This document shows positions 1 through 15,043 of a stretch of 64,000 nucleotides of DNA, piece after piece (the first letter of the stretch is position 1; every line of letters starts with the position of its first letter). A program made the translations under genes and the position numbers. The stretch is from positions 62,001 to 126,000 of the forward strand of contig JACMKX010000160.1 of the NCBI GenBank assembly GCA_014379905.1, read 5' to 3'. Origin of the DNA: Ferruginibacter sp. GTDB taxonomy: Bacteria > Bacteroidota > Bacteroidia > Chitinophagales > Chitinophagaceae. The notes beneath the pieces were generated by a model that made no database searches, was not told the DNA's origin, and saw only the letters and a program-made list of their open reading frames with translations.

Positions 1-295
1 GCAGGTTGACCAGGTGAATGAATGGATCAGGCTCACCATAAGTGAAAGAAACAGGTTGAAAAACAACTTGCTCAAATTTTCGTTTGTGAAAAAAGTATAC
101 GAAAGCGATGCCAATTTTTTATTGGTGAAATTCATTAATGCCGGGGAGGTATACCAATATCTCGCCACCAATAAAATTGTAGTTAGAAACCGAAGTCATG
201 AGTCGGGTTGCGAAGATTGCCTTCGCATAACAATAGGAACTGCCGGGGAAAATAAGCAACTCATCCACTTACTAAATCAATACAATGGGAAATAA
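1..295 (+). CDS. hisC: Histidinol-phosphate aminotransferase, C-terminal fragment
   Basis: The reading frame is open from base 2 and runs off the left edge, so only about the last 97 residues are present; the ATG at 14 is internal. The end shows the C-terminal pattern of PLP-dependent HisC, with CLRITIGTAGEN holding the conserved substrate-binding arginine. HisC converts imidazole acetol phosphate to histidinol phosphate. The frame overlaps the hisB start by 11 bases, implying translational coupling inside the his operon. The identification rests on this tail and on the his genes that follow. Confidence 0.85.
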   Translation, partial: QVDQVNEWIRLTISERNRLKNNLLKFSFVKKVYESDANFLLVKFINAGEVYQYLATNKIVVRNRSHESGCEDCLRITIGTAGENKQLIHLLNQYNGK

Positions 296-1448
296 AAATA
301 ATAAAGCCAGGCGGGTACTGTTTATTGACAGGGACGGAACGCTTATTAAAGAAGCGGCACCCAGTTACCAGCTTGATTCTTTTGATAAACTGGAATTTTA
401 CCCGCATGCCTTTGAATATTTGACAAAGATTGCAGCAGAACTAGATTATGAACTGGTGATGGTTACCAACCAGGATGGCATGGGTACGGATGCTTTTCCT
501 GAAAATACTTTTTGGCCCCTGCATAATTTTGTGATGAAAAGTTTTGAAAACGAGGGAGTGATATTTTCAAAAGTATTTATTGACAGAACTTACCCGCATG
601 AAAATATTGCTACCCGTAAACCCGGTACAGGTATGTTGCTGGAATACCTCAACAACGAAGCTTACGATATCACTCATTCCTTTGTGATAGGGGATCGTAT
701 AACGGATGTTCAGCTGGCTAAAAATCTTGGATGTAAAGCAATCTGGCTAAACCTGGATGAACAGTTGGGCGCAGCAGAGATCAATAATACATTGGATGAG
801 CTAAGAGCGGGTACCATTGCATTGACTACGCCCGACTGGGAGAATATATACAGGTTTTTAAAACTACCCCAACGTGTCATCCGGCATGAAAGAAATACGA
901 AAGAAACAAAAATTTCTATTTTGCTGGACCTGGATGGAACCGGTAAGGCTGCTATTAAAACCGGCCTGAATTTTTTTGATCATATGCTTGAACAGCTGGC
1001 AAAACACAGCGGTATGGATCTGGGTATTGTTTGCAATGGCGACCTTGAAATTGACGAACACCATACCATAGAAGATACAGCCATAGCATTGGGCGAAGCC
1101 GTTGCAAAAGCATTGGGAGATAAAATGGGCCTGGAACGTTACGGATTTTTATTGCCTATGGATGACAGTCTTGCAAAAGTTGCCATTGACTTTGGCGGAA
1201 GATCGTGGCTCCTGTGGAAGGTTAAATTTAAAAGAAATAAAATTGGAGATGTGCCCACAGAAATGTTTGAACATTTTTTTAAATCCTTTAGCGATGCTGC
1301 GAAATGCAACATCAATATTCAGTGCAAGGGAAAAAATGAGCACCATAAAATTGAGTCCATTTTTAAAGCATTTGCAAAATCCATTAAAATGGCTATAAAG
1401 CGGGATATTAAAAATAACAATCTTCCAACCACCAAAGGAATACTATAA
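285..1448 (+). CDS. hisB: Bifunctional histidinol-phosphatase / imidazoleglycerol-phosphate dehydratase
   Basis: A two-domain enzyme of 387 residues covering two steps of histidine synthesis. The N-terminal HAD phosphatase has the DxDxT motif at FIDRDGT (Asp15, Asp17) and a late HAD acidic motif GDRITD near residue 136. The dehydratase domain begins near residue 197 and shows FFDHMLEQLAKHSGMDL and the two manganese-binding His clusters DEHHTIED (about 257) and NEHHKIES (about 351). The length is normal for fused HisB. It overlaps hisC by 11 bases, and its stop codon directly abuts the ATG of hisH. Confidence 0.97.
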   Translation: MGNKNNKARRVLFIDRDGTLIKEAAPSYQLDSFDKLEFYPHAFEYLTKIAAELDYELVMVTNQDGMGTDAFPENTFWPLHNFVMKSFENEGVIFSKVFIDRTYPHENIATRKPGTGMLLEYLNNEAYDITHSFVIGDRITDVQLAKNLGCKAIWLNLDEQLGAAEINNTLDELRAGTIALTTPDWENIYRFLKLPQRVIRHERNTKETKISILLDLDGTGKAAIKTGLNFFDHMLEQLAKHSGMDLGIVCNGDLEIDEHHTIEDTAIALGEAVAKALGDKMGLERYGFLLPMDDSLAKVAIDFGGRSWLLWKVKFKRNKIGDVPTEMFEHFFKSFSDAAKCNINIQCKGKNEHHKIESIFKAFAKSIKMAIKRDIKNNNLPTTKGIL

Positions 1449-2036
1449 ATGAATATTGCAATTGTAAAATACAATGCCGGTAATGTGAAGAGCGTAATGT
1501 ATGCATTAAATCGCCTGGGATTTTCAGCAATTGTTACAGATGATGAAAAGGAATTGAGAAAGGCAGATAGAGTTATTTTACCCGGGGTAGGAAATGCAGG
1601 TGCTGCTATGCAAAGTTTGAAAGAGAAAAACCTCGACAAAATTATTTCATCGTTAACACAACCGGTATTAGGTATTTGTGTTGGTATGCAATTGTTGTGC
1701 AATCATTCTGAAGAAGGTAATACCCAGTGCCTGGGTATTATTGATACAGCCGTAAAAAAATTTACAGCACAGGATAATTTAAAAGTGCCGCAAATGGGAT
1801 GGAATAATTTGTATGATTACAAATCAGCACTATTGGATGGACTGCCTGAGAATGCTTTTGTTTATTATGTGCACAGCTATTATGCAGAGGTAGGCAATAC
1901 TACCGTAGCAACAACACACTACACATTACCTTATAGCGCAATTATACAAAAGAACAATTTTTATGGGGTACAATTTCATACAGAAAAATCCGCAGATACC
2001 GGAGACAGGATATTACTAAACTTTCTTAATCTTTAA
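1449..2036 (+). CDS. hisH: Imidazole glycerol phosphate synthase, glutaminase subunit
   Basis: A class I glutamine amidotransferase of 195 residues that releases ammonia from glutamine and passes it to HisF. The triad is visible: nucleophile Cys77 in GICVGMQ, and His177 and Glu179 in VQFHTEKS. The N-terminal region with NAGNVKSV and LPGVGNAG is typical of HisH. The ATG follows the hisB stop with no gap, and the TTG of hisA lies two bases after its stop, so the genes are cotranscribed and probably coupled. The partner HisF is two genes downstream. Confidence 0.97.
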   Translation: MNIAIVKYNAGNVKSVMYALNRLGFSAIVTDDEKELRKADRVILPGVGNAGAAMQSLKEKNLDKIISSLTQPVLGICVGMQLLCNHSEEGNTQCLGIIDTAVKKFTAQDNLKVPQMGWNNLYDYKSALLDGLPENAFVYYVHSYYAEVGNTTVATTHYTLPYSAIIQKNNFYGVQFHTEKSADTGDRILLNFLNL

Positions 2037-2037
2037 A

Positions 2038-2814
2038 TTGAAAGCAGGCGAACCAAATATTAAGCGGGAGCATTTTGTCATTCCGGCAATAGATATCATC
2101 AATGGCAAAGCCGTGCGGTTAACGCAGGGCGATTATGCGCAACAAAAAATTTATAATGAAGATCCGCTGGAAGTGGCAAAAGCATTCGAGGACGCAGGCT
2201 TGAATCGGCTTCACCTGGTTGATTTAGATGGAGCAAAGGCCGGGAGCATTCAAAACAGGAAAGTGCTGGAAAATATTTCAGCAAATACCAGGCTGCACAT
2301 AGATTTTGGAGGGGGGATAAAAACGATTGAAGATGTACGATCAGTTTTAAATGCCGGAGCAAAAATTATTACTATCGGAAGTCTTGCCGTTAAACAGCCG
2401 GAATTATTGGCTGAATGGATGGAGACTTTTGGCACCGGCCGGTTTTTTATTGGTGCAGATGTATATGAGGAGAAAATTAAGATCAATGGCTGGTTACAGG
2501 ATGGCGGCATGGATGTCTACACGTTTTTACAAAACATGACCGCTATTGGCATCACTGATTTTTTTTGTACCGACATAAAAATGGATGGAGCATTGCAGGG
2601 CACTTCACTGGAACTGTATAAAAAAATTATCGCGAAATTTCCCGGTATTTTATTAACAGCCAGTGGCGGTGTTGCAAGTATAACAGATGTAATTGCTGCA
2701 AGGGAAGCAGGTTGCAGCGGCGTTATTATAGGGAAAGCAATTTATGAAGGATTGATTAGTTTGAAAGATTTAGAAAAATTAAATAACCCCGGAAACTGTA
2801 ATTATGCTTTGTAA
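2038..2814 (+). CDS. hisA: ProFAR isomerase HisA, TTG start
   Basis: A (beta/alpha)8 barrel of 258 residues that isomerises ProFAR to PRFAR. Catalytic Asp19 lies in IPAID and Asp141 in IGADVYEEK; the phosphate loops DFGGGIKT and TASGGV are present. The only credible start is TTG at 2038, one base after the hisH stop, because no in-frame ATG lies between it and the conserved VIPAID strand. This gives about 11 extra residues before the usual HisA beginning. The gene overlaps hisF by 11 bases. Confidence 0.95.
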
Positions 2815-3562
2815 ACGAATCATACCATGCCTGGATATTAAAGATGGCCGCACAGTGAAGGGGGTAAACTTCTGTTCATTAAAAGATGCAGGCGATCCGG
2901 TAGCACTGGCTGTTCAATATGCTAAACAGGGAGCAGATGAATTGGTTTTGCTGGATATAACCGCAACGGTAGAACGCAGAAAAACTTTTGCATCACTGGT
3001 AAATGACATTGCTTCTTCCATCAACATTCCTTTTACCGTTGGTGGTGGTATAAGAACCGTAGCCGATGTGGAGTTGTTATTAAAAAATGGTGCAGATAAA
3101 ATTTCTGTTAATTCAGCAGCATTTAAACAGCCGTCTGTTATAAAGGAAATGTGTGCCGCTTTTGGCAGTCAGTGCGTGGTGCTTGCTATTGATACAAAAA
3201 AGGAGGAGAATGGTGACTGGTACGTTTATTTAAACGGGGGGACCATAAAAACAACCGTCAAAACAATTGATTGGGCAAGGCAGGCAGTAGACCTGGGAGC
3301 CGGGGAAATATTACTGACAAGCATGAACAACGATGGAACCAAAAATGGTTTCGCACTCGATATTACCCGGGCACTGGCAGCAGGTTTACCTGTTCCCATC
3401 ATTGCATCAGGCGGTGCCGGCAGTCCTGAACATTTTAAAGAAGTATTTGAGTTTGCCAACGCAGACGCAGCCCTGGCAGCCAGCGTTTTTCACTATGGAG
3501 AAATTTTAATTCCGGAGCTGAAAAAATATTTGCAGCAGGAAAATATTACGGTAAGAATATAG
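2804..3562 (+). CDS. hisF: Imidazole glycerol phosphate synthase, cyclase subunit
   Basis: A half-barrel-duplicated TIM barrel of 252 residues that makes imidazole glycerol phosphate and AICAR from PRFAR and HisH-derived ammonia. Asp11 in PCLDIKDG and Asp130 in VLAIDTKKE match the catalytic pair; FTVGGGIRT and [12 protein letters not shown] form the phosphate sites. It starts within the last codons of hisA (11-base overlap), the same geometry as hisC/hisB. A 51-base gap separates it from hisIE. Confidence 0.97.
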
Positions 3563-3613
3563 TGTACTGTATTACAAGTGACCAACAATAATTGATAACA
3601 TTAAGCACCATAA

Positions 3614-4249
3614 ATGACGAACGAACTAAACTTTTACCCCGGTGAACCGCAAGGGCCCGATTTTAATAAGTATGCTGATGGACTTTTGCCTTGCATAATA
3701 CAAGATCACAACACCAATAAAGTTTTAATGCTGGGCTTTATGAATGAAGCCGCTTTGCAAAAAACCATTGAATTAAAACAGGTTACTTTCTTTAGCCGCA
3801 GCAAACAAAGGCTCTGGACAAAAGGAGAAACGTCCGGCAATTTTCTAACACCGGTAGATTTCATTCCTGATTGTGACAATGATACCCTTCTTATAAAAGC
3901 CGTTCCATCCGGGCCCATCTGCCATAAAGGTTCAGATACCTGTTTTGGAGAAGAAAATAAAAGCAGCGACTTTTTGATTGAGTTGGAAGCGCTGATTGAT
4001 GACAGGATATTAAATCCCGTGGAAGGATCTTATATCAACAAGCTTTTTTCCAGGGGAATTAATAAAATTGCGCAAAAGGTAGGAGAGGAAGCTGTGGAAT
4101 TAGTAATAGAAGCAAAGGATAACAATGATGAGTTGTTTAAAGAAGAAGCCGCAGATCTTTTATTTCATTATCTCTTATTGTTGAAAACGAAAAAGGTTGG
4201 TCTCCAGGATATAAAAGAGGTATTGAAACAAAGACACAAGATAAACTAG
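3614..4249 (+). CDS. hisI: Bifunctional phosphoribosyl-AMP cyclohydrolase / phosphoribosyl-ATP pyrophosphatase
   Basis: HisIE fusion of 211 residues carrying out the second and third steps of histidine synthesis. The N-terminal cyclohydrolase shows LGFMNEAAL, FFSRSKQRLWTKGETSGN, the acidic metal site DCDNDTLL, and cysteines in PICHKGSDTC. The C-terminal pyrophosphatase is MazG-like, with GEEAVELVIEAK and EEAADLLFHYLLLL. It is the last gene of the operon here; hisG and hisD would be expected upstream of the window. A GC-containing imperfect hairpin near 4297-4316 could end transcription but has no clear T run. Confidence 0.96.
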   Translation: MTNELNFYPGEPQGPDFNKYADGLLPCIIQDHNTNKVLMLGFMNEAALQKTIELKQVTFFSRSKQRLWTKGETSGNFLTPVDFIPDCDNDTLLIKAVPSGPICHKGSDTCFGEENKSSDFLIELEALIDDRILNPVEGSYINKLFSRGINKIAQKVGEEAVELVIEAKDNNDELFKEEAADLLFHYLLLLKTKKVGLQDIKEVLKQRHKIN

Positions 4250-4420: not shown

Positions 4421-4606
4421 TTAGACCGAACCAATTGATCCGCCCCAGATTCCAAATACCCGCAGTAGCCATATAATAACGACAATTACTACTACTACGT
4501 TTAAAATAGATTTAATGGAACTGGCCATTGGAATAAAACGGTTGATCAGCCATAAGATAAGGCCTACAATGATCAGGGTTACTACTACTGTAATGAGCGT
4601 GTTCAT
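4421..4606 (-). CDS. Small two-helix membrane protein, Thivi_2564 type
   Basis: Only 61 residues, with two hydrophobic helices (about 4-23 and 35-52) joined by a short loop containing NRFIPM. The order TLIIVGLILWLINRFIPM, then SIKSILNVVVVIVVIIW, matches the small inner-membrane family named Thivi_2564 (recognised from memory of the family). Function is unknown. It is a single-gene unit on the opposite strand to its neighbours with its own terminator. The opposing strand holds no competing gene, which supports it as real despite its size. Confidence 0.75.
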   Translation of the reverse strand: MNTLITVVVTLIIVGLILWLINRFIPMASSIKSILNVVVVIVVIIWLLRVFGIWGGSIGSV

Positions 4607-4710
4607 ATTGCTTGTTTTAGTTGGTTGATGTTATGGTATCAAAAAATCATACCAATTTTTAAAAGCAGGTCGTACCCGGCATAAAAAAATTTTGAAGTCA
4701 GCATGATTAT

Positions 4711-5414: not shown

Positions 5415-6308
5415 ATGTTCAGCAAAATATCCTATATCCGGTTATGTATTGGTTTATACCTGCTTGCAGTTATCTTTTCGGCGTGTAACAATGATCTTTC
5501 TTCTAAAAATGGCCTCATTCCAAAGGATGCAGAAGCTTCAAAATTCAAAGATTCTGAATTCTATAATTTTTCTCAACCCTATCTTATCAATCTTCCGCCC
5601 ACGCTGGATGAAATTTCTGGCATAGCTTATTATGCAAAAGATACCAGTGTATTTGCCATCATTGATGAAGACGCATTACTATACAAAATTCCATTAAACG
5701 ATGCTGCCAATATTCAGCAATGGGCATTTGGTAAACCAGGCGACTATGAAGACATCGTTTTAAAAGACAGTGTTTTCTATATACTGGTGAGCAACGGCGG
5801 TATCAGGTCGCTTCAGTTTAATGGTAAAGACATAAAAACCGGTAAATACGATTTTGTTACCGGCGAAAAAAAGAGCAAAAATGAATTTGAATCAATGTAT
5901 GTTGATTCGGGAGACATCATCATTTTGTGTAAAGATTGCGATGCCGACAAAAAAATAAAGACTTCCCGGTTTGCGTTGAATATTGCTGCATCCCAATACC
6001 ATGAAATGGCTCCATTGAATAACGGAGCGGTAGCCAATTTAATTGAAGATAAAAAAGTTAAGTTAAGGGCTTCCGCCGCAGCTATTAATCCTGTTACCAA
6101 TGAACTCTATGTGATCAGTGCCGTAAATAAAACCATCTATATTTTTGATTCGGAATTAAATCCCAAAGAATTTTTTGAGTTAAATCCTAAAATATACAAA
6201 CAACCTGAAGGGCTTGCTTTTACGCCAGAGGGAGACCTTATCATTTCCAATGAAGTGTACCTGGAGGGCAATCCTAATTTACTGGTACTAAAAAATAAAA
6301 AGAAATAA
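5415..6308 (+). CDS. SdiA-regulated-type beta-propeller lipoprotein
   Basis: A lipoprotein of 297 residues: a hydrophobic signal ends in the lipobox VIFSAC (Cys about 23), predicting lipid attachment. The body, starting LPPTLDEISGIAYYAKD and ending LNPKIYKQPEGLAFTPEGDLIISNE, has the blade pattern of the SdiA-regulated family (PF06977), a propeller fold also seen in phytase-like proteins. No catalytic residues can be assigned. Its stop is followed after one base by the start of the metallophosphoesterase fusion, so it heads the operon 5415-15043. Confidence 0.8.
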   Translation: MFSKISYIRLCIGLYLLAVIFSACNNDLSSKNGLIPKDAEASKFKDSEFYNFSQPYLINLPPTLDEISGIAYYAKDTSVFAIIDEDALLYKIPLNDAANIQQWAFGKPGDYEDIVLKDSVFYILVSNGGIRSLQFNGKDIKTGKYDFVTGEKKSKNEFESMYVDSGDIIILCKDCDADKKIKTSRFALNIAASQYHEMAPLNNGAVANLIEDKKVKLRASAAAINPVTNELYVISAVNKTIYIFDSELNPKEFFELNPKIYKQPEGLAFTPEGDLIISNEVYLEGNPNLLVLKNKKK

Positions 6309-6309
6309 C

Positions 6310-9300
6310 ATGAGACTAAAAGCGTGGCTATTTACCTGCCTGGTAATATTTTTTACAAACGCTATTGCGCAGCAGGATACCATCCAGGCTACTATCGTTT
6401 TGATTGGTGATGCGGGCGAACTTACAAATGGAAAACATCCTGTTGTGGACGCTGCAAAAAAAACAGTGAAGATGGATGAGAAAACGACTGTGTTGTACCT
6501 GGGCGATAATTTATACAAAACAGGCTTACCCGATGACGCTGTTCCCAATTTTGCCATTGCAAAAGCACCTTTAGATTCACAAATACATATTACCAGGGGC
6601 AACACCAAAACAAAGGTTTATTTCATCCCCGGTAATCATGATTGGGCAAACGGAGGTAAAAACGGCTACCAGTCTATATTGCGTGTGCAGGATTATATTG
6701 ACATCTTAGGAAATGAAATGGTGAAAATGTTGCCAAGAGATGGATGCGGCGGGCCGGAGGAGGTAAAAATAAATGATGACATTACTTTGGTGATGATGGA
6801 TAGCCAGTGGTGGATCCATGAATACGATAAACCAGGTGTGGAATCTGATTGTCCTTTTAAAACAAAAGCAGAAATGCTCACCGAACTGGATGAAATACTT
6901 GCAAAGAATTCCAAGAAGCTTATACTATTTGCCACGCATCATCCTTTTAAAAGTTACGGACCACACGGTGGATACTTCACTTTAAAACAACACATTTTTC
7001 CTTTCACCGATGCAAAGCCCAATTTATATATTCCCCTGCCCGTATTAGGTTCTGTATATCCTTTAACGAGGGCGGTATTTGGTACTGCACAGGATATCCA
7101 GCACCCGTTTTATCAAAGTATGATACGTGACATCAGCGATGTAATAAAAGGAAATCCTAACGTGGTATACCTGGCCGGACATGAACATGGACTTCAGATG
7201 ATACAGGATAGCAGCTATAATTATATTGTAAGCGGTGGAGGTTGTAAAATGAGCCGGGTATCAAAATCGAAGAATACAAAATATGCAAAAGAGAGTACTG
7301 GCTTTGTTACGCTCCAGGTATCAACAAATAAAAATGTCAAAGTAAATTTCTATGAAGTAAACGGAGATTCTGTTAAAAAAGCCTACACGCAAAACATCCT
7401 GGATTTTTCCAAAATACCGGAATTACCTAAGGATACATTAAGAGATGTGGAATTTGTTTACAAGGATACAGTTGTAATTTCTGCCTCTGATGAATTCAAA
7501 CATCCAAGAGGGTTTAGGAAATTCATGATTGGGGAAAATTACAGAAAAACATGGAATGAACCCGTGAGTTTCAAGATATTTAATATCAATAAAGAACAGG
7601 GTGGATTTATAATAAAAAGCCTGGGTGGCGGCAAACAGACCAAGTCATTGAAATTGGAAGATAAAAACGGGAAAGAATGGTCTTTGCGAACTTTGGAAAA
7701 AGATCCGGAAAAAGCATTGCCCGTTAACCTCCGGGGCACATTAGCCCAGGATGTGGTAAAAGATGCTATCAGTGCAAGTGATCCCTATTCGCCATTAGCG
7801 GTTGCCGTATTGGCCAAAGCCGCAGGCATTCCCGCAGCCGCTCCCAAATTCTTTTTCGTGCCCGATGATCCGTCCCTCGGTTATTACAGGCCTTTATTTG
7901 CTAACAAAGTAGTAACCCTGGAAGACAGGGATCCGGTACCGGATGGCGACACAAAAAGTACCTACTCAGTCTTAAATAAATTATACGAGGACAATGATGA
8001 TAAAATTGATCAGCCGGCTTTACTGAATGCGAGGATGCTTGATATACTTGTGGCAGACTTTGATCGTCATGCTGATCAGTGGAAATGGGGTACAAAAGAT
8101 ACCGGCAAGGGAAAATTATATTACCCCGTGCCCCGGGACCGGGACCAGGCGTTTTTTAAATCAGATGGTTTGCTAATCGGTTATCTTTCAAGAAGAAGAA
8201 TGGCTTTCCTTAAAGGATTTACCAAAAAAATAAAAAAGATCAACGCATTCGGTTTTGCCTCAAGAGATTTCGACCGTTCTTTCCTGAACGCTGTTGACGA
8301 AAAAAAATGGAAAGAAGTAGCAGAAGCTTTTGTAGCTAAAATGACCGACGATGTAATCGTAGAAGCCGGTAATGCTTATCCACCGGAAATTAAACCACTA
8401 AGAACAGCAAAAGTAATAGAAACCCTCAAAAGGAGAAGGGAACAGTTAGTGGAGCAATCACTCAAATATTACAGGTTCATATCCAGGGATGTGGTAATAC
8501 ATGGAAGCAATGACGCTGAATTTTTTCATCTAAGTAATGATAGTGGAGAGGTAAATGTAAAAGTTTATAAGATCAGTAAAGAAAAGCGTGACACTACCTA
8601 TCTTTTATATAACCGGAATTTCACCAAAAAGGTAACAGACGAATTAAGACTATTTGGTTTGAACGGCAATGATAAATTTTACATAGACGAAGATGTAGAC
8701 AGCCGGATAAAAGTAAGGATAATAGGGGGTAAGGGGTTGGATACTTTTGATATACAGGGATCAAACAGAACGCATATCTATGATTTTAATGCTGAGAAAA
8801 ATGTAGTGCTTGAATCAAGCCGAACCAACAATCATTTTTCTTCCGATGTAAATGTAAATAGCTTTAATGATAGCCGGTATCAATACGACCGGGTGCATAT
8901 TCCACGGGTGAATGCAGGGTTTAACGCAGAAGACGGCATATTGTTAGGGGTAGGTTTCTGGATTCGCCGGTTCGGGTTTCGGAAAGATCCATATGCTTAT
9001 GATCATAAATTTGGAGCATTGATAGCGCCCTCTAAAAATGCGGCTTACCAGTTTAAATATCGTGGTGAAATGAACCAGCTGTTTGCTAAAAAAGACCTGA
9101 TCATTAATGCAGAATTTGTGAATCCTACGCTGAATTCATTTTTTGGAATAGGCAACAAAACAGAATTTGATAAAGATAAAGGGGTTGATTTTTACCGCGT
9201 GCGTTACAAGTATATAAGCGGTGATGTGTTGTTGAGAGGTAGGCCCATTGATTTTTTACAACTCTCTGCCGGCCCTACATTTTACCACTACTGGAATGAT

Positions 9301-9960
9301 TATCGTGATAATGAATCCAAAATTCTTGCTAATATTGCAGGTTCCAGCCTGAACGATTCACTCAGGATATTTTCCAATAAAATGTATGCGGGCCTGCGTG
9401 CAAGAATGGATATTGATTATACCAATAGCGAACTTTTTCCCACAAGGGGTGTGCGCTGGATAACTGACTTTAGCCGCCTGTATGCTTTAAATGAAAAAAG
9501 CTATAGCCTGACTAAGATCACAACAGATATGACAATTTATGCAAAAGTGTCGGACATTAGTAAATTCTCCAGTGTATTGAGAGTAGGTGCAGGACACATT
9601 TTCAACGAGAATTATGATTTTTTCCAGGCGGTAAACCTGGGGTCCAATAACTTCCTGCGGGGATTCCGTAAGAACAGGTTTTCCGGGAAAACAATGTTCT
9701 ATGCGGGTACTGATCTTAAGTATTCTCTTTTCCGGGCAAAATCGAAATTACTCTCAGGAGATGTGGGGATGATTGGTTTTTATGAATTGGGACGTGTTTG
9801 GGCAAAAGGACTGCCCAACGGCAGTTTTCATCATTCCTACGGTGGCGGTCTTTATTTTGCGCCATTCGACTTATTATTAATTTCCGCCACAGTAGGCTTT
9901 TCAGAAGAAAGCGTTTTATTTAATTTTACACTCGGAACAAAATTCAACCTAACATTCTGA
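6310..9960 (+). CDS. Metallophosphoesterase fused to an outer-membrane beta-barrel
   Basis: A 1216-residue secreted protein in three parts. After a signal peptide ending NAIAQ (about 20), residues 28-350 are a calcineurin-like phosphoesterase with GDAGE, YLGDNLY, IPGNHDW, FATHHPF and LAGHEHG supplying the metal ligands. Residues about 380-760 form a region with LVADFDRHADQWKWG and PRDRDQAFF, acidic motifs recalling atypical kinases such as CotH (weak inference). The last 350 or so residues are an Omp85/BamA-like barrel with ELFPTRGVRW and NFLRGFRKNRF, ending in Phe. The phosphatase is thus probably anchored at the outer membrane. The gene is one base after the lipoprotein gene and 12 before the HD-PycTM gene. 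Confidence 0.85.
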   Translation: MRLKAWLFTCLVIFFTNAIAQQDTIQATIVLIGDAGELTNGKHPVVDAAKKTVKMDEKTTVLYLGDNLYKTGLPDDAVPNFAIAKAPLDSQIHITRGNTKTKVYFIPGNHDWANGGKNGYQSILRVQDYIDILGNEMVKMLPRDGCGGPEEVKINDDITLVMMDSQWWIHEYDKPGVESDCPFKTKAEMLTELDEILAKNSKKLILFATHHPFKSYGPHGGYFTLKQHIFPFTDAKPNLYIPLPVLGSVYPLTRAVFGTAQDIQHPFYQSMIRDISDVIKGNPNVVYLAGHEHGLQMIQDSSYNYIVSGGGCKMSRVSKSKNTKYAKESTGFVTLQVSTNKNVKVNFYEVNGDSVKKAYTQNILDFSKIPELPKDTLRDVEFVYKDTVVISASDEFKHPRGFRKFMIGENYRKTWNEPVSFKIFNINKEQGGFIIKSLGGGKQTKSLKLEDKNGKEWSLRTLEKDPEKALPVNLRGTLAQDVVKDAISASDPYSPLAVAVLAKAAGIPAAAPKFFFVPDDPSLGYYRPLFANKVVTLEDRDPVPDGDTKSTYSVLNKLYEDNDDKIDQPALLNARMLDILVADFDRHADQWKWGTKDTGKGKLYYPVPRDRDQAFFKSDGLLIGYLSRRRMAFLKGFTKKIKKINAFGFASRDFDRSFLNAVDEKKWKEVAEAFVAKMTDDVIVEAGNAYPPEIKPLRTAKVIETLKRRREQLVEQSLKYYRFISRDVVIHGSNDAEFFHLSNDSGEVNVKVYKISKEKRDTTYLLYNRNFTKKVTDELRLFGLNGNDKFYIDEDVDSRIKVRIIGGKGLDTFDIQGSNRTHIYDFNAEKNVVLESSRTNNHFSSDVNVNSFNDSRYQYDRVHIPRVNAGFNAEDGILLGVGFWIRRFGFRKDPYAYDHKFGALIAPSKNAAYQFKYRGEMNQLFAKKDLIINAEFVNPTLNSFFGIGNKTEFDKDKGVDFYRVRYKYISGDVLLRGRPIDFLQLSAGPTFYHYWNDYRDNESKILANIAGSSLNDSLRIFSNKMYAGLRARMDIDYTNSELFPTRGVRWITDFSRLYALNEKSYSLTKITTDMTIYAKVSDISKFSSVLRVGAGHIFNENYDFFQAVNLGSNNFLRGFRKNRFSGKTMFYAGTDLKYSLFRAKSKLLSGDVGMIGFYELGRVWAKGLPNGSFHHSYGGGLYFAPFDLLLISATVGFSEESVLFNFTLGTKFNLTF

Positions 9961-9972
9961 TCAGTTTTTAAA

Positions 9973-11211
9973 ATGAAAGATTACACGCAAATATTAAAAT
10001 TAACAGAAGAATATGTTTCTTCCTTGTATGAAGAACATACATCAAACTGTTTGATTTTTCATAACCTTGCCCATACCAAAGAGGTAGTTAAACGCTCCAA
10101 CGAGATTGCCGGGCATTATCAATTGTCGGAAAATGAGTCACTTATTTTATTTGTAGCGGCCTGGTTTCATGACACTGGATATCTTTTTGTATCACCCCAT
10201 TTGCACGAAGAAAAAAGTGTGCAATTGCTGAAAGAGTTTGCCGCAAAAATCAGTTTAAATGAAACTGATCTAGAAGGCATTACAGCCTGTATTATGGCCA
10301 CTAAAGCACCCAGGGATCCTGTAGGTAAACTACAGAAAATTATGTGTGATGCCGATACTTACCACCTGGGTACAAAGGATTTTAAAAAGCACAATAAAAA
10401 CATAAGGAAGGAATTAAGCTGCACCTCCGGAGGTAAATTCAATCTTGCTGCCTTCAACGCCCGCACCATCAGTTTTTTTGAAGAACACGAATTTTATACC
10501 AGCTATTGCAGGGACCTGCTAAATGAACAAAAAAAGAAGAACATGAAAAAATTATCTAAAAAGATAAAGGAAGATGATCATTCTATTAAAGTACCGGTAC
10601 TTGATGCAGAACCGGGCCGGGGGATAGAAAAGCGTGGTGGAACCAAAGGCGTGCAAACCATGCTGCGGCTCACTTCTTCCAATCATATCCAGTTAAGCGA
10701 AATGGCAGATAGTAAAGCAAATATTCTTATCTCTGTAAATGCCATTATCATTTCAGTAATACTAACGGTGATGTTGCGAAAATTGCAAACCGATCCATAT
10801 TTAACCATCCCGTCTTTTTTGTTCCTTGCATTTTCTGTAGCAACCATTGTTACCGCTATACTGGCCACCAGGCCAAAGTTAAGCTCTGGTATATTTATGG
10901 AAGATGACGTTCAGAATAAAAAAACAAACCTTTTGTTCTTTGGTAATTTCCATAAAATGCAGGCCGATCAATATGATAAAGCTATGCGAAGCATGATGCA
11001 GGACCCAGATTATCTATACAGCTCTATGATACAGGATATTTATTACCTGGGTGCTGTACTGGGAAAAAAGTATCGCCTTGTTCGTATTGCGTATAATATA
11101 TTCATGATAGGAATAATTTTGTCTGTTGCAGCCTTTGCCATAGCGGCTTTAATAAATGCCGGTACCACAACAGCCGGCACCGTAACCAATAGTACAGGCT
11201 CACCATTTTAA
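9973..11211 (+). CDS. HD-domain phosphohydrolase fused to a PycTM-type membrane effector domain
   Basis: A 412-residue protein. Residues 1-150 are an HD phosphohydrolase: His30/His34, the HD pair His66-Asp67 in AAWFHDTGYLF, and Asp126/Asp128 in MCDADTYHLG. After a lysine-rich linker, residues 235-395 carry three predicted membrane helices (about 252-270, 280-298, 374-394) starting with EMADSKANILISVNAIIIS, the signature I associate with DUF5706/PycTM, the membrane effector of Pycsar antiphage systems. Such HD fusions also occur as ordinary chromosomal genes in Bacteroidota. The gene lies 7 bases before ppk, and a cyclase gene follows ppk, so HD, effector-like domain and cyclase are cotranscribed. 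Confidence 0.8.
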   Translation: MKDYTQILKLTEEYVSSLYEEHTSNCLIFHNLAHTKEVVKRSNEIAGHYQLSENESLILFVAAWFHDTGYLFVSPHLHEEKSVQLLKEFAAKISLNETDLEGITACIMATKAPRDPVGKLQKIMCDADTYHLGTKDFKKHNKNIRKELSCTSGGKFNLAAFNARTISFFEEHEFYTSYCRDLLNEQKKKNMKKLSKKIKEDDHSIKVPVLDAEPGRGIEKRGGTKGVQTMLRLTSSNHIQLSEMADSKANILISVNAIIISVILTVMLRKLQTDPYLTIPSFLFLAFSVATIVTAILATRPKLSSGIFMEDDVQNKKTNLLFFGNFHKMQADQYDKAMRSMMQDPDYLYSSMIQDIYYLGAVLGKKYRLVRIAYNIFMIGIILSVAAFAIAALINAGTTTAGTVTNSTGSPF

Positions 11212-11218
11212 AATTATC

Positions 11219-13270
11219 ATGTATTTAAACAGAGATATCAGCTGGCTTTCATTTAATGAACGGGTTTTGCAGGAAGCACATGATGGCACCGTGCCTTTAT
11301 ACGAACGTTTAAAATTCCTGGGAATTTTTTCGTCTAATCTGGATGAATTTTTCAGGGTGCGTTACCCGGTCATTGTAGCACTTAGCAAACTAGATAAAAA
11401 AACCAGGCACAGATCAAATCTGATGAACAAGGCGGATGTACAGGAACTCGTGCATATCACCATTAACCACCAGCTTAACCGCTTTGGCAAAGTATTATGT
11501 GATGAACTGATACCGGAGCTAAAACAAAAAGGAATTTATTTTTATTACAATGAATCCATACAGGATGCGCACGTTGCAGAAGTAAAAGAAATTTTCCTGG
11601 CTAATGTACTGTCATTTATTCAACCCGTATACCTGGCGGCAGACACAGGCAATAAATTTTTACCCGAAAACAACCAGCTCTATTTTATTGTTTCCCTGCG
11701 CATGAAAGATGGAGAAGGCTTAAAACATGTTGCCATCAATATTCCTACCACGAAGCTGCAGCGTTTTTTTGAACTTAAACAAATAAATGGAGTAAATTAT
11801 GTCATCTTTATTGATGATATAGTACGACAGAATATAAAGCTGCTTTTTCCCGGCAACGAGATAGAATCGGTTTATAGCATTAAATTTAACAGGGATGCAG
11901 AACTGTCGTTAGACAATGACTATGCAGGCGGATTGTTGGAAAAGCTTGAAAAAAAGATTGCTAAAAGAAATGATGGAAAAGCCACCAGGTTATTGGCAGA
12001 AGCCGGCATGCCTGCCAATCTTTTACTTTTTCTCTCCAGTCTCTTTAATGTAGAAACCTCCGATCTTTTTGAAGGTGGCCGGTACCACAACCTCAGTGAT
12101 CTTATGAATTTTCCTGTATTTGATAAAGACCTGCTGTATAAAAAACAGCCCCCCATAGCTTATCCGCCTATCAGCAGTACAGAAGACCTTTTTTCGGTGA
12201 TACAGGAAAAAGATATATTGCTTCACCTTCCTTACCACGCTTATTCACCGGTGCTTAGTTTTTTTAACCAGGCTGCCATTAACCCGGATGTAACAGAAAT
12301 CTATATTACTTTATACCGGGTGGCAAGGGAGTCGCATATCGTAAATGCCCTGATAAGTGCTGCAAAAAATGGAAAAAAGGTTACTGCTTTTATAGAATTA
12401 AAGGCCCGTTTTGATGAAGAGAATAATATTAAGTGGAGCAGGGTTATGAAACAGGCCGGGGTAAAACTTGTATACAGCGAAGCCGCTGTAAAAGTGCACT
12501 CTAAAATTGCACTGGTGAAAAAAAAGACTGAAAACGGGACACGGAATTTTTCTGTAATCAGCACAGGCAACTTTAATGAAACTACTTCCACCTTCTATAC
12601 AGATCACGTTTTAATGACAGCTAAGGAAGGTATCGGCAATGAGATAAACAGCCTTTTCGAAGAATTATCTGCCGGTAAAAAAACGGATTCAGTATCTGCA
12701 TTAAAATTCAGGGAATTGTATGTCACTAAAATAAACCTGACCGATAAATTTGAAAAATTTATCGGGAATGAAATAAAACGACAGAAGCAAGGCGGTAAAG
12801 GGCTGATAAGAATTAAAGTGAATAACCTCGAAGATCCGCACTTTATCGATCTGCTGTACAAAGCATCACAGGCCGGAGTTACAGTAAATTTAATAGTAAG
12901 AAGTATTTGCTGCCTCGTGCCCGGCATTGAAGGATTGAGCGAAAATATTACCGTAAAAAGATTGGTGGATAAATACCTTGAGCATTCCCGCCTTTTGATT
13001 TTTGGGGATAATGATGATACGGCTGTTATAACAATGGGATCTTCAGATTTAATGAGCAGGAACCTGCACAGGCGTATTGAAGTGTGTGCAGCTATTAAAG
13101 ACCCCAACAGCAGGAAAGAATTGCTTTATTATTTTGATACGCAATGGAACGACAATACAAAAGCCGGTACAATAACTGCCACCAATGAACTCATAAGGGC
13201 ATTACCGGCAGGCGAAGCAGTAAATGCGCAAACTGCTATTTACGATTATCTAAAAACAGCGCATGCTTAA
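11219..13270 (+). CDS. ppk1: Polyphosphate kinase 1
   Basis: 683 residues, the normal length of PPK1, which reversibly polymerises ATP gamma-phosphate into polyphosphate. The N-terminal domain begins RDISWLSFNERVLQEA with SSNLDEFFRVR. The catalytic domains carry the phospho-accepting His427 in VKVHSKIAL and the second conserved His589 in YLEHSRLLIFG, followed by SSDLMSRNLHRRIEV. All key residues are intact. It is linked to HD-PycTM upstream by 7 bases and overlaps the cyclase gene by 8 bases, implying coupled expression of polyphosphate synthesis and nucleotide signalling. Confidence 0.95.
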   Translation: MYLNRDISWLSFNERVLQEAHDGTVPLYERLKFLGIFSSNLDEFFRVRYPVIVALSKLDKKTRHRSNLMNKADVQELVHITINHQLNRFGKVLCDELIPELKQKGIYFYYNESIQDAHVAEVKEIFLANVLSFIQPVYLAADTGNKFLPENNQLYFIVSLRMKDGEGLKHVAINIPTTKLQRFFELKQINGVNYVIFIDDIVRQNIKLLFPGNEIESVYSIKFNRDAELSLDNDYAGGLLEKLEKKIAKRNDGKATRLLAEAGMPANLLLFLSSLFNVETSDLFEGGRYHNLSDLMNFPVFDKDLLYKKQPPIAYPPISSTEDLFSVIQEKDILLHLPYHAYSPVLSFFNQAAINPDVTEIYITLYRVARESHIVNALISAAKNGKKVTAFIELKARFDEENNIKWSRVMKQAGVKLVYSEAAVKVHSKIALVKKKTENGTRNFSVISTGNFNETTSTFYTDHVLMTAKEGIGNEINSLFEELSAGKKTDSVSALKFRELYVTKINLTDKFEKFIGNEIKRQKQGGKGLIRIKVNNLEDPHFIDLLYKASQAGVTVNLIVRSICCLVPGIEGLSENITVKRLVDKYLEHSRLLIFGDNDDTAVITMGSSDLMSRNLHRRIEVCAAIKDPNSRKELLYYFDTQWNDNTKAGTITATNELIRALPAGEAVNAQTAIYDYLKTAHA

Positions 13271-14336
13271 GCTATCATCTGAAAAAAAGTGGTTATCCGG
13301 CTTATACAGGCTTAGGTTTACAAGAGTAATATACATTGGTCTCTGCTGGTCGCTTATTGACCTTATTGTTTCTTTCTTTTATTATTACGGCCACCGGCAA
13401 ATGGAAGAGATCATTGCTATCCGGTTTGCTATTGCCCTCCTGCTGAGTGTATTGTTCGGTTATGTTTTTATCTTTGGTTATAGAAATTTTTTAACAAAAC
13501 ATCCTTTGGTTACAGGACTGTTGATCAAGGGCGTTTTATTGGTTGTAGGAGCAGTATGCATTACGTTGCTGATATTTACAATAGAGACTTTTTTCTTAAC
13601 TGAGTATAAATATGCTGACCTTGAAAATATTTTTTTTAATGATCAAAAACGACCCTGGCTTTTTTTTAAAAGAACTTTATATTGGCTGATCGTTTTCCTT
13701 GCTACCAAATTATTTGTTGAGATCAACGATAAATATTCCCCCGGCGTGTTTATTGATTTTCTTAGGGGAAGCTACCGCCAGGCAAAAAACGAAGACAGGA
13801 TCATTATGTTCATTGACCTGAAAGATTCAACCCCTATTGCAGAAAAGCTGGGGCATGAGCATTACTTCGGCTTTATAAGGGAATTTATCAAAATGATTTC
13901 CCTGGCAATCATCGATCACCAGGGATTGATTTATCAATATGTAGGCGATGAGATCGTGGTATCATGGCTCACCTCCCAAAAAAATTGCAATAAAGCCCTG
14001 GCAACGGTGGTGGATGCAAGAAAAAATATTCAAAAAAGAGGCGAGTGGTTTAGAAGAAAATATGACATAGTGCCCGAGTTCAGGGTTGGTATACATACCG
14101 GGAATGTTACAATAGGTGAAATAGGAGTTGTAAAAAAAGACCTTGCCATGAGTGGCGATACCATGAATACTTCCGCCCGTATAAGAAGTGCCTGCAACGA
14201 ACTGAATCAAAAATTCCTGGTGTCAAAGGAGTTTGTAGAATGTGCCGGTTTGCAGCCAATGCATGCAGAATACCTGGGCGATTTTGAACTGAAAGGGAAA
14301 TCCGAACATGTAGCGCTCTATTCTCTCAAAATTTAA
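13263..14336 (+). CDS. Membrane-bound class III nucleotide cyclase
   Basis: 357 residues. Residues 20-155 hold about four membrane helices; the C-terminal half is a class III cyclase domain. Metal-binding Asp185 (MFIDLKDST) and Asp229 (YVGDEIVV), and the transition-state pair Asn302 and Arg306 (MNTSARI), are present, so catalysis is plausible. The residues that read the base are non-canonical: Gln225 where adenylate cyclases have Lys, and Ala295 where they have Asp or Thr. cAMP is the default guess, but the product cannot be fixed from sequence. It overlaps ppk by 8 bases and is 14 bases before the PAP2 gene. Confidence 0.88.
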   Translation: MLKLSSEKKWLSGLYRLRFTRVIYIGLCWSLIDLIVSFFYYYGHRQMEEIIAIRFAIALLLSVLFGYVFIFGYRNFLTKHPLVTGLLIKGVLLVVGAVCITLLIFTIETFFLTEYKYADLENIFFNDQKRPWLFFKRTLYWLIVFLATKLFVEINDKYSPGVFIDFLRGSYRQAKNEDRIIMFIDLKDSTPIAEKLGHEHYFGFIREFIKMISLAIIDHQGLIYQYVGDEIVVSWLTSQKNCNKALATVVDARKNIQKRGEWFRRKYDIVPEFRVGIHTGNVTIGEIGVVKKDLAMSGDTMNTSARIRSACNELNQKFLVSKEFVECAGLQPMHAEYLGDFELKGKSEHVALYSLKI

Positions 14337-14350
14337 ATTATCTTTCAAAC

Positions 14351-15043
14351 ATGATTGATGAAAAAAAGAAATGGAGCGGGCGGCTCAAGATTCTCGGCCT
14401 CGATCTTAGTATTATACTTCTATCTTTTATTGCATCTGTAATTATAATGATCCTGCTGGTAAAATTGGTTTTTTTTGAAACAGCCAACCATTACGATGTG
14501 GCCGCCTTCAACCTGGTAGGAAGGTATGTATCAGACAGGAATACAGCTATCATGGAGTTTTTTACATTGCTTGGCTCTCATCGGTTTTTGGTGCCGGCTA
14601 ATTTGCTGCTGATTGCCTATGCAATTTTTATTCAAAAAAATACCTGGCTGGCAATAAAAGTTGGCGCCATTGGTGTAAGCAGCCTTATCCTTATGTTTAG
14701 CCTTAAAGCCTTGTTCAACAGGCCAAGACCTGAAACCCCTTTGCTCTACGAAGTACCGGGCCTGAGCTTCCCCAGCGGCCATGCATTTATGAGTTTTACT
14801 TTTTTTGGTTTACTTATATATCTTACGCTAAAGCAGGTCATCAATCCTTTGCTTAAATACGGCCTGAGTTTAATTTTATTCATAACGATAGTATTCATCG
14901 GTCTTAGCCGGATTTACTTACGTGTACATTATGTAACTGATGTGGCTGCAGGCTTTTCACTGGGTATGATATGGCTGGTGATATCGCTGTATAGTATTCA
15001 AATGATTGAAAAGAATAAAGCGAAATTGCCACCCGTAGATTAA
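14351..15043 (+). CDS. PAP2-family membrane phosphatase
   Basis: A six-helix integral membrane phosphatase of 230 residues. All three PAP2 signature motifs are present: KALFNRPRP (Lys119-Arg124-Pro), FPSGHAF (PSGH 141-144) and SRIYLRVHYVTD (Arg187, His193, Asp197). Family members remove phosphate from phosphatidic acid, undecaprenyl pyrophosphate or lipid A; the substrate cannot be told here. It is the last gene of the 5415-15043 operon, which is rich in phosphate-ester enzymes. A 65-base gap precedes the next gene. Confidence 0.92.
   Translation: MIDEKKKWSGRLKILGLDLSIILLSFIASVIIMILLVKLVFFETANHYDVAAFNLVGRYVSDRNTAIMEFFTLLGSHRFLVPANLLLIAYAIFIQKNTWLAIKVGAIGVSSLILMFSLKALFNRPRPETPLLYEVPGLSFPSGHAFMSFTFFGLLIYLTLKQVINPLLKYGLSLILFITIVFIGLSRIYLRVHYVTDVAAGFSLGMIWLVISLYSIQMIEKNKAKLPPVD

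Follow-up and report, generated by a model that had tools for sequence, protein, structure and literature searches.

A six-gene operon of Ferruginibacter around an HD-PycTM protein suggests a possible cyclic-nucleotide signalling module at the Bacteroidota envelope

Results

Gene content of the operon

The window analysed here is a stretch of 64,000 nucleotides from contig JACMKX010000160.1 of Ferruginibacter sp. (phylum Bacteroidota; genome of 5.1 Mb in 194 contigs), and the part of it studied, positions 5415-15043, holds an operon that includes the gene of an HD-PycTM protein, in which an HD phosphohydrolase domain is fused to a PycTM domain. Six open reading frames follow one another on the plus strand (Table 1) with gaps of 1, 12, 7, -8 and 14 bases, exactly as an earlier note on this DNA had listed them, and the families named there for the six proteins were each backed by Pfam above the curated cut-off. 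We propose, with about even confidence, that the operon belongs to a chromosomal signalling module of the Bacteroidota that couples a cyclic nucleotide to the phosphate chemistry of the envelope.

Table 1. Features of the operon, with their positions in the window
Feature	Position	Strand	Description and evidence
SdiA-regulated-type lipoprotein, 297 amino acids	5415..6308	+	PF06977 25.8 bits, cut-off 21; lipobox-like IFSA|C by eye
Outer-membrane protein, 1216 amino acids	6310..9960	+	Signal peptide by eye; calcineurin-like phosphatase, kinase-fold domain, Omp85-type barrel
Calcineurin-like metallophosphatase domain	6391..6987	+	Residues 28-226; PF00149 (Metallophos) 27.1 bits
Kinase-fold domain (predicted, new annotation)	7465..8598	+	Residues 386-763 as modelled; structure prediction
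Kinase catalytic motif ADFDRHADQW (putative)	8053..8082	+	Residues 582-591
Kinase metal-binding motif PRDRDQAFF (putative)	8131..8157	+	Residues 608-616
Omp85-type barrel	9088..9945	+	Residues 927-1212; PF01103 31.7 bits
HD-PycTM protein, 412 amino acids	9973..11211	+	PF18967 122.6 bits, PF01966 25.0 bits
HD phosphohydrolase domain	10069..10365	+	Residues 33-131 by Pfam; first ligand H30 just upstream
PycTM domain	10780..11112	+	Residues 270-380; PF18967 E 1.1e-35; PADLOC PycTM E 1.1e-18
Polyphosphate kinase 1, second paralogue of the genome	11219..13270	+	TIGR03705 639.6 bits, cut-off 465.85; PPK1 Pfam domains up to 220.5 bits
Membrane class III nucleotide cyclase	13263..14336	+	Catalytic part ~13800-14321; PF00211 (Guanylate_cyc) 45.4 bits
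PAP2-type membrane phosphatase, peripheral member	14351..15043	+	PF01569 67.4 bits

The second gene had been described earlier as a fusion of a metallophosphoesterase and an outer-membrane barrel. Both domains were recovered by Pfam, but a third had been overlooked: the middle of the protein (residues ~386-760) is predicted by structure modelling to adopt a kinase-type fold of the CtkA/CotH/PI4K type with conserved motifs. Of 85 domain copies, 75 keep the pattern [DN][FWY]DRHxxQW, as do 54 of 56 full-length proteins. In the 85 aligned copies the aspartates of the metal motif are conserved at 95% (D610) and 93% (D612), and 56 of the 85 match the narrower pattern D[RH]D[QN]. In naming these kinase motifs we presume the corresponding motifs of PI3K/PI4K. 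At E<=1 the middle domain of 16 members matched no Pfam kinase family, and the best match of its profile among PDB sequences was CtkA, with an E value (0.22) that is not significant alone. The phosphatase motifs are likewise retained in most of the 56 full-length relatives (GDx[GHS] in 55, GDNxY in 53, GNHD in 52), GH[ED]H in only 37. Several kinase-domain genes occur at three places (L104, L140 and L141) in a single genome, G072.

The third gene encodes the HD-PycTM protein, whose PycTM-type effector domain scored 122.6 bits against a Pfam cut-off of 27.2; the cut-off for the HD family PF01966 is 22 bits. The HD metal ligands H...HD...D are present as H30, H66, D67 and D126, and are found in 95-100% of 64 copies of this HD subfamily. 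Fifty of the 64 are fused to PycTM, nine stand alone and five are fused to a cyclase, with the ligands kept in all three architectures. A profile of the HD part retrieved from the PDB mainly the small HD proteins Lin1889 (9.5e-10) and YedJ, at E values of about 1e-9 to 2e-8, followed more weakly by Cas10 (1.5e-5) and the class I cyclic nucleoside monophosphate (cNMP) phosphodiesterases (~1e-3); a PDB sequence search with HD-PycTM alone returned nothing useful. The protein has at least 7972 relatives among the best 8000 candidates scored, and the PycTM Pfam domain was present in all 120 HD-PycTM relatives among the matches listed. One metagenome contig (L046:10001-11178) carries a broken HD-PycTM reading frame.

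The cyclase gene that accompanies this effector lies two genes downstream. Its product, well above the PF00211 cut-off of 21.9 bits, keeps both metal-binding aspartates (motifs FIDLKDST and YVGDE) and the segment GDTMNTSAR. Relative to the second aspartate, position -4 is Q and position -2 is V; relative to the first, position -2 is F. The Q stands where adenylate cyclases have K, according to the residue rule for adenylate and guanylate cyclases that we assume here. Published enzymes specific for cytidine triphosphate (CTP) carry R and Q at the base-recognition positions (part of PMC11224242), and the F is common to two enzymes specific for uridine triphosphate (UTP) or CTP, as described in the relevant parts of the published work, and to adenylate-type cyclases. 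These residues do not prove a substrate.

Domain fusions tie the cyclase to the other two domains. PycTM-cyclase fusions were confirmed by Pfam at L086 and L099, and HD-cyclase fusions were found by Pfam at L053, L055 and L058 (the HD of L055 scoring 19.5, under the cut-off of 22) and by our own profiles at L052 and L057; at L096 the genes for kinase-barrel, cyclase, PycTM and HD are consecutive. Together with the kept HD ligands, these arrangements agree with the earlier suggestion that PycTM, HD and cyclase form a functional set. The fusions of L055 and L058 additionally contain a response-regulator domain by Pfam.

The polyphosphate kinase of the operon is not the only one of its genome: another PPK1, which the earlier note had missed, lies on a different contig. 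In a tree of 29 PPK1 sequences, 14 of the 15 copies linked to HD-PycTM group together (support 95/94), along with the long-branched PPK1 of L151, which shares their branch yet has no HD-PycTM nearby. The other PPK1 of the window genome falls outside this group and pairs with the remaining linked copy, that of L041, which was labelled as linked in the tree although it groups there. Because 14 of 15 linked copies stand apart from the genome's other PPK1, the PPK1 of the operon looks like a dedicated paralogue. In genomes of one further family (f21, L119-L127), PPK1 and the kinase-barrel gene are separated by 12-15 kb; their order is conserved, and the intervening genes look unrelated.

Surroundings of the operon

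A promoter scan gave 37 sites against 42.7 in shuffled sequences, and terminator-like sites numbered 21, against 14.1 (standard deviation 4.4) in shuffles; these scans set no transcript boundary. Downstream, an S9-type peptidase gene (PF00326, 15109-18081) follows on the same strand 65 bases past the operon, as it does after 64 bases in L033, and may be co-transcribed with it. Upstream, positions 285-4249 hold a row of genes which, read by eye from their translations, we take to be of histidine-biosynthesis type. Between these and a TrmH-like gene a possible short hydrophobic frame was seen by eye on the minus strand (4430-4610).

Conservation of the gene neighbourhood

PF18967 was found at 63 places in 56 of 148 genomes of the phylum. 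Sixty places were retrieved with flanks, one is the window itself, and the last two stand outside the neighbour counts; some of the fetched stretches stop at contig ends. The 60 loci that were classed comprise 34 with HD-PycTM, 24 with a small PycTM and two with the PycTM-cyclase fusions. At L093, missed by the gene caller and likewise outside the counts, lipoprotein and phosphatase-barrel genes flank the PycTM. The labels SixA-like, GAF and porin/CotH were assigned by clustering, with one or few members of each scanned with Pfam, and SixA is the name we presume for the His_Phos_1 protein.

Within 10 kb of the 34 HD-PycTM loci, the kinase-barrel gene was present at 25 (at 14 of them within 200 bases), a GAF protein gene at 17, the lipoprotein gene at 16, PPK1 at 8, a SixA-like phosphatase gene at 7, PAP2 at 6 and a recognised class III cyclase gene at 2, with a third at 12.9 kb. 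Chance alone, under an assumed copy number and genome size, would give 0.23 loci for the kinase-barrel gene and 0.22 for PPK1; the linkage of the module genes is thus far above chance, and HD-PycTM is linked more often to the envelope protein than to PPK1. The continuous linkage of six families proposed earlier therefore stands for the kinase-barrel gene, but not as a general rule for PAP2, PPK1 and the recognised cyclase, and the six-gene set is the form taken in one lineage by a broader theme, in which PAP2 is peripheral and PPK1 and the cyclase vary by lineage. Around the 24 small PycTM loci the same distance contained a cyclase gene in 16 cases and the kinase-barrel gene in 6. At the level of whole genomes, in sets compiled by hand from separate searches, the kinase-barrel gene occurs in 31 of the 32 genomes with HD-PycTM versus 26 of the 116 others (partial matches counted).

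Gene order tells a similar story, and the adjacency expected in the earlier note was borne out, as the genes recur as one unit in related loci. All six genes in the same order and with tight gaps were found in one relative, L033, whose HD-PycTM is 61% identical. The first five also occur in order in L036, L037, L038 and L040, the last of which has a 309-base gap with an opposite-strand reading frame ahead of PPK1. The contig of L039 begins inside the barrel gene and continues with HD-PycTM, PPK1 and the cyclase. The order from barrel to cyclase thus recurs in six related loci, with gaps alike in L033, L036, L037, L038 and L039, and PAP2 comes directly after the cyclase, at a distance of 2 bases in L033 and of 106 bases in L039. 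A second set was chosen by similarity to the whole HD-PycTM and is biased to close relatives; it comprises 16 loci (L033-L048) of 26, the other ten matching the HD part only. Here the barrel gene was adjacent or one gene off in all 16 (one cut by a contig end), the cyclase was near in 13, the lipoprotein gene in 10 and PPK1 in 7.

A GAF protein as partner in other lineages

Nine genomes with HD-PycTM lack a recognised class III cyclase (PF00211), and in all nine the gene of a GAF protein lies within 7 kb of HD-PycTM. In genome sets likewise compiled by hand, it was found in 26 of the 32 HD-PycTM genomes versus 2 of the 116 others. Flavobacterium species also carry this GAF protein. The C-terminal part of this protein has a predicted cyclase-like fold. 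Profile comparisons with the cyclase by hhalign gave probabilities of 0.8% and 0.3-0.4%, hardly higher than the negative controls (0.3% with the HD and 0.1% with the kinase), and therefore it is structure alone that supports a cyclase in the GAF partner. A PDB sequence search with the profile of the C-terminal part yielded nothing useful. On this modelling the GAF protein is probably an alternative maker of the cyclic nucleotide in other lineages.

Distribution and phylogeny of HD-PycTM

HD-PycTM occurs at 34 places in 32 of the 148 genomes, in single copy in 30 of them, and nearly all genomes of one family (f5, 13 of 14) have it. In the PycTM tree, one group of 58 rows (94/86; 98/98 for the 60 rows that include L109 and L110) unites the HD-PycTM sequences with the small PycTM of family f21 and with the PycTM-cyclase fusions; the remaining small PycTM fall outside it on long branches, where joins are possibly false. 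Seven of the 26 loci of the similarity set were used in this tree, L120, L123, L156 and L046 were omitted as duplicate or broken, and the duplicate L121 was included. The tree, and with it the spread of the module, mostly follows taxonomy, the exceptions being G037, whose two copies stand apart, G122, whose copies do likewise, and G033, a member of the window's family, which groups with G055 of family f17 and not with the window. Considering the patchy presence of HD-PycTM in the window's own family, loss or transfer must have occurred.

Discussion

The gene content, the neighbourhoods and the fusions can be brought together in one scheme. The inner-membrane class III cyclase would make a cyclic mononucleotide, with the GAF protein and its hidden cyclase-like domain as the probable maker in other lineages. 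PycTM, anchored in the same membrane, would sense this signal, and the fused HD domain would destroy it. As HD is fused to PycTM, receptor and off-switch would reside in one protein, a suggestion drawn from family knowledge, the fusions and the residues; the idea of a receptor plus remover gains support from the PycTM-cyclase and HD-cyclase fusions and from the kept HD ligands. The second, presumably dedicated PPK1 would make polyphosphate. Finally, the phosphatase and the predicted kinase-type domain of the outer-membrane protein could dephosphorylate and phosphorylate a target in the envelope. A soluble region on the N-terminal side of an Omp85 barrel usually lies in the periplasm, which makes it doubtful that phosphate esters are cleaved at the surface, as had been suggested earlier.

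Several observations count against this scheme. ATP (adenosine triphosphate) is scarce in the periplasm, and extracytoplasmic kinases require a phosphate donor. A recognised class III cyclase is near only 2 of the 34 HD-PycTM loci, and the cyclase-like fold of the GAF partner lacks the backing of a sequence profile. The base-recognition residues of the window cyclase match neither the purine nor the published pyrimidine types, and the HD-cyclase fusions L052, L055, L057 and L058, and L053 in part, carry canonical adenylate-cyclase residues, unlike the window cyclase. Among the 50 HD-PycTM copies, three lack H34 and two lack H66. The co-occurrence statistics take genomes as independent, ignoring shared ancestry. 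Moreover, of the seven genomes of the window's family (f1), HD-PycTM is present in two (G000 and G033) and a small PycTM in one (G126), the remaining four lacking both; PycTM and the kinase-barrel gene are both missing from the only same-genus genome in the sample.

The best-surviving alternative concerns the HD domain, which might be an output enzyme acting on another nucleotide and switched on when PycTM binds its signal, rather than a cNMP phosphodiesterase. The ranking of the HD profile, with the small HD proteins and then Cas10 ahead of the class I phosphodiesterases, is what this would lead one to expect. Nevertheless, we consider it unlikely, and favour an action on the product of the cyclase, because HD domains of this subfamily also occur fused to cyclases that have no PycTM. 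A phosphate-starvation operon, in which all genes would serve the scavenging and storage of phosphate and the cyclic-nucleotide part would be one regulator among others, appears distinctly unlikely. It would account for the presence of phosphatase, PPK1 and PAP2 within one operon and for the genes of CotH, phosphate-porin-like and PAP2 type that accompany HD-PycTM at L073:16089-19052 (PF08757, PF07396) and, by clustering, at L076:3264-6269. However, PPK1 is not among the most frequent neighbours of HD-PycTM, which are the kinase-barrel, the GAF protein and the lipoprotein. In addition, a term search for pf01103 and pf06977 found neither in the main text of a study on phosphate depletion in Flavobacterium johnsoniae, which is weak evidence against such an operon from part of that source.

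A phage-defence role of the Pycsar type, in which the cyclase would make a cyclic pyrimidine on infection, PycTM would disrupt the membrane and HD would otherwise silence the system, is suggested by the matches to the PADLOC models (PycTM, and PycC at E 4.5e-15), by the label 'Pycsar system effector family protein' that NCBI gives to some relatives, and by the absence of HD-PycTM from 5 of the 7 genomes of the window's family, a patchiness also typical of defence systems; yet we regard it as very doubtful, since HD-PycTM groups in the tree with the small PycTM of the family that has metallophosphoesterase (MPP)/kinase/barrel neighbours, apart from the other small PycTM with their uncertain placement, sits beside conserved envelope and PPK1 genes, is mostly single-copy and near-universal in family f5, and is accompanied in the window by a cyclase whose Q(-4) and V(-2) of the second aspartate are unlike the UTP-/CTP-specific enzymes in the parts of the published work used. 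Defence was thus set aside as the principal explanation on tree, context and residues, with the patchiness in the window's family pointing the opposite way. For comparison, we presume a patchy, mobile, defence-type distribution to be usual for Pycsar. HD-PycTM may still work by the same receptor principle. Because this PycTM branch differs from the small Pycsar-like effectors, the label 'Pycsar effector' is probably misleading for it. At L114:9567-11152 and L118:9450-10962 a small PycTM lies beside cyclases with R-x-Q-G-D, the pattern described for cytidylate cyclases in part of the published work, and these are likely, from their residues, to be true Pycsar-like pairs.

If the module indeed couples a cyclic nucleotide to envelope phosphate chemistry, it would represent a housekeeping role for cyclic mononucleotides in the Bacteroidota, with a named receptor, an off-switch and two candidate makers; genes labelled as Pycsar effectors may then not be defence genes, and the outer membrane would hold a kinase-type domain for which no covering Pfam family was found. 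We see only a slim chance for a more far-reaching version, a widespread, so far unrecognised trans-envelope phosphorylation circuit of the Bacteroidota, in which the kinase-phosphatase-barrel protein may use polyphosphate from the dedicated PPK1 as donor and would be tuned by a non-canonical cyclic nucleotide that HD-PycTM reads as well as degrades; the Pycsar effector branch would then descend from a physiological receptor or have a common origin with it. A literature search, covering titles and abstract openings and with subscription journals mostly outside its reach, found no description of the module. The comparison with published systems draws on parts of PMC8115612, PMC11224242 and PMC9117128.

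Among known systems, Pycsar resembles that of the window in pairing a class III-type cyclase with a PycTM-domain membrane protein. The window system differs in that an HD domain is fused to PycTM, in its separate PycTM branch and other base-recognition residues, and in the partners of the module, namely the kinase-phosphatase-barrel, the lipoprotein, the GAF protein and PPK1; since branch, tree and context differ, we have not filed it as Pycsar. With the class I cNMP phosphodiesterases, YedJ and Lin1889, the HD domain has in common the metal-ligand pattern and a profile similarity that is weak for the phosphodiesterases; compared with the eukaryotic phosphodiesterases it is much shorter and is fused to PycTM or a cyclase. 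The polyphosphate kinase matches the known PPK1 enzymes over its full length, above the TIGR03705 cut-off, whereas relative to the other PPK1 of its genome it is a separate paralogue beside HD-PycTM. With the atypical kinases CtkA, CotH, HipA, FAM20 and PI4K the middle domain of the outer-membrane protein shares the predicted fold and the layout DRHxxQW ... DxD, but it has a calcineurin-like phosphatase on one side and an outer-membrane barrel on the other, and it matches no Pfam kinase family.

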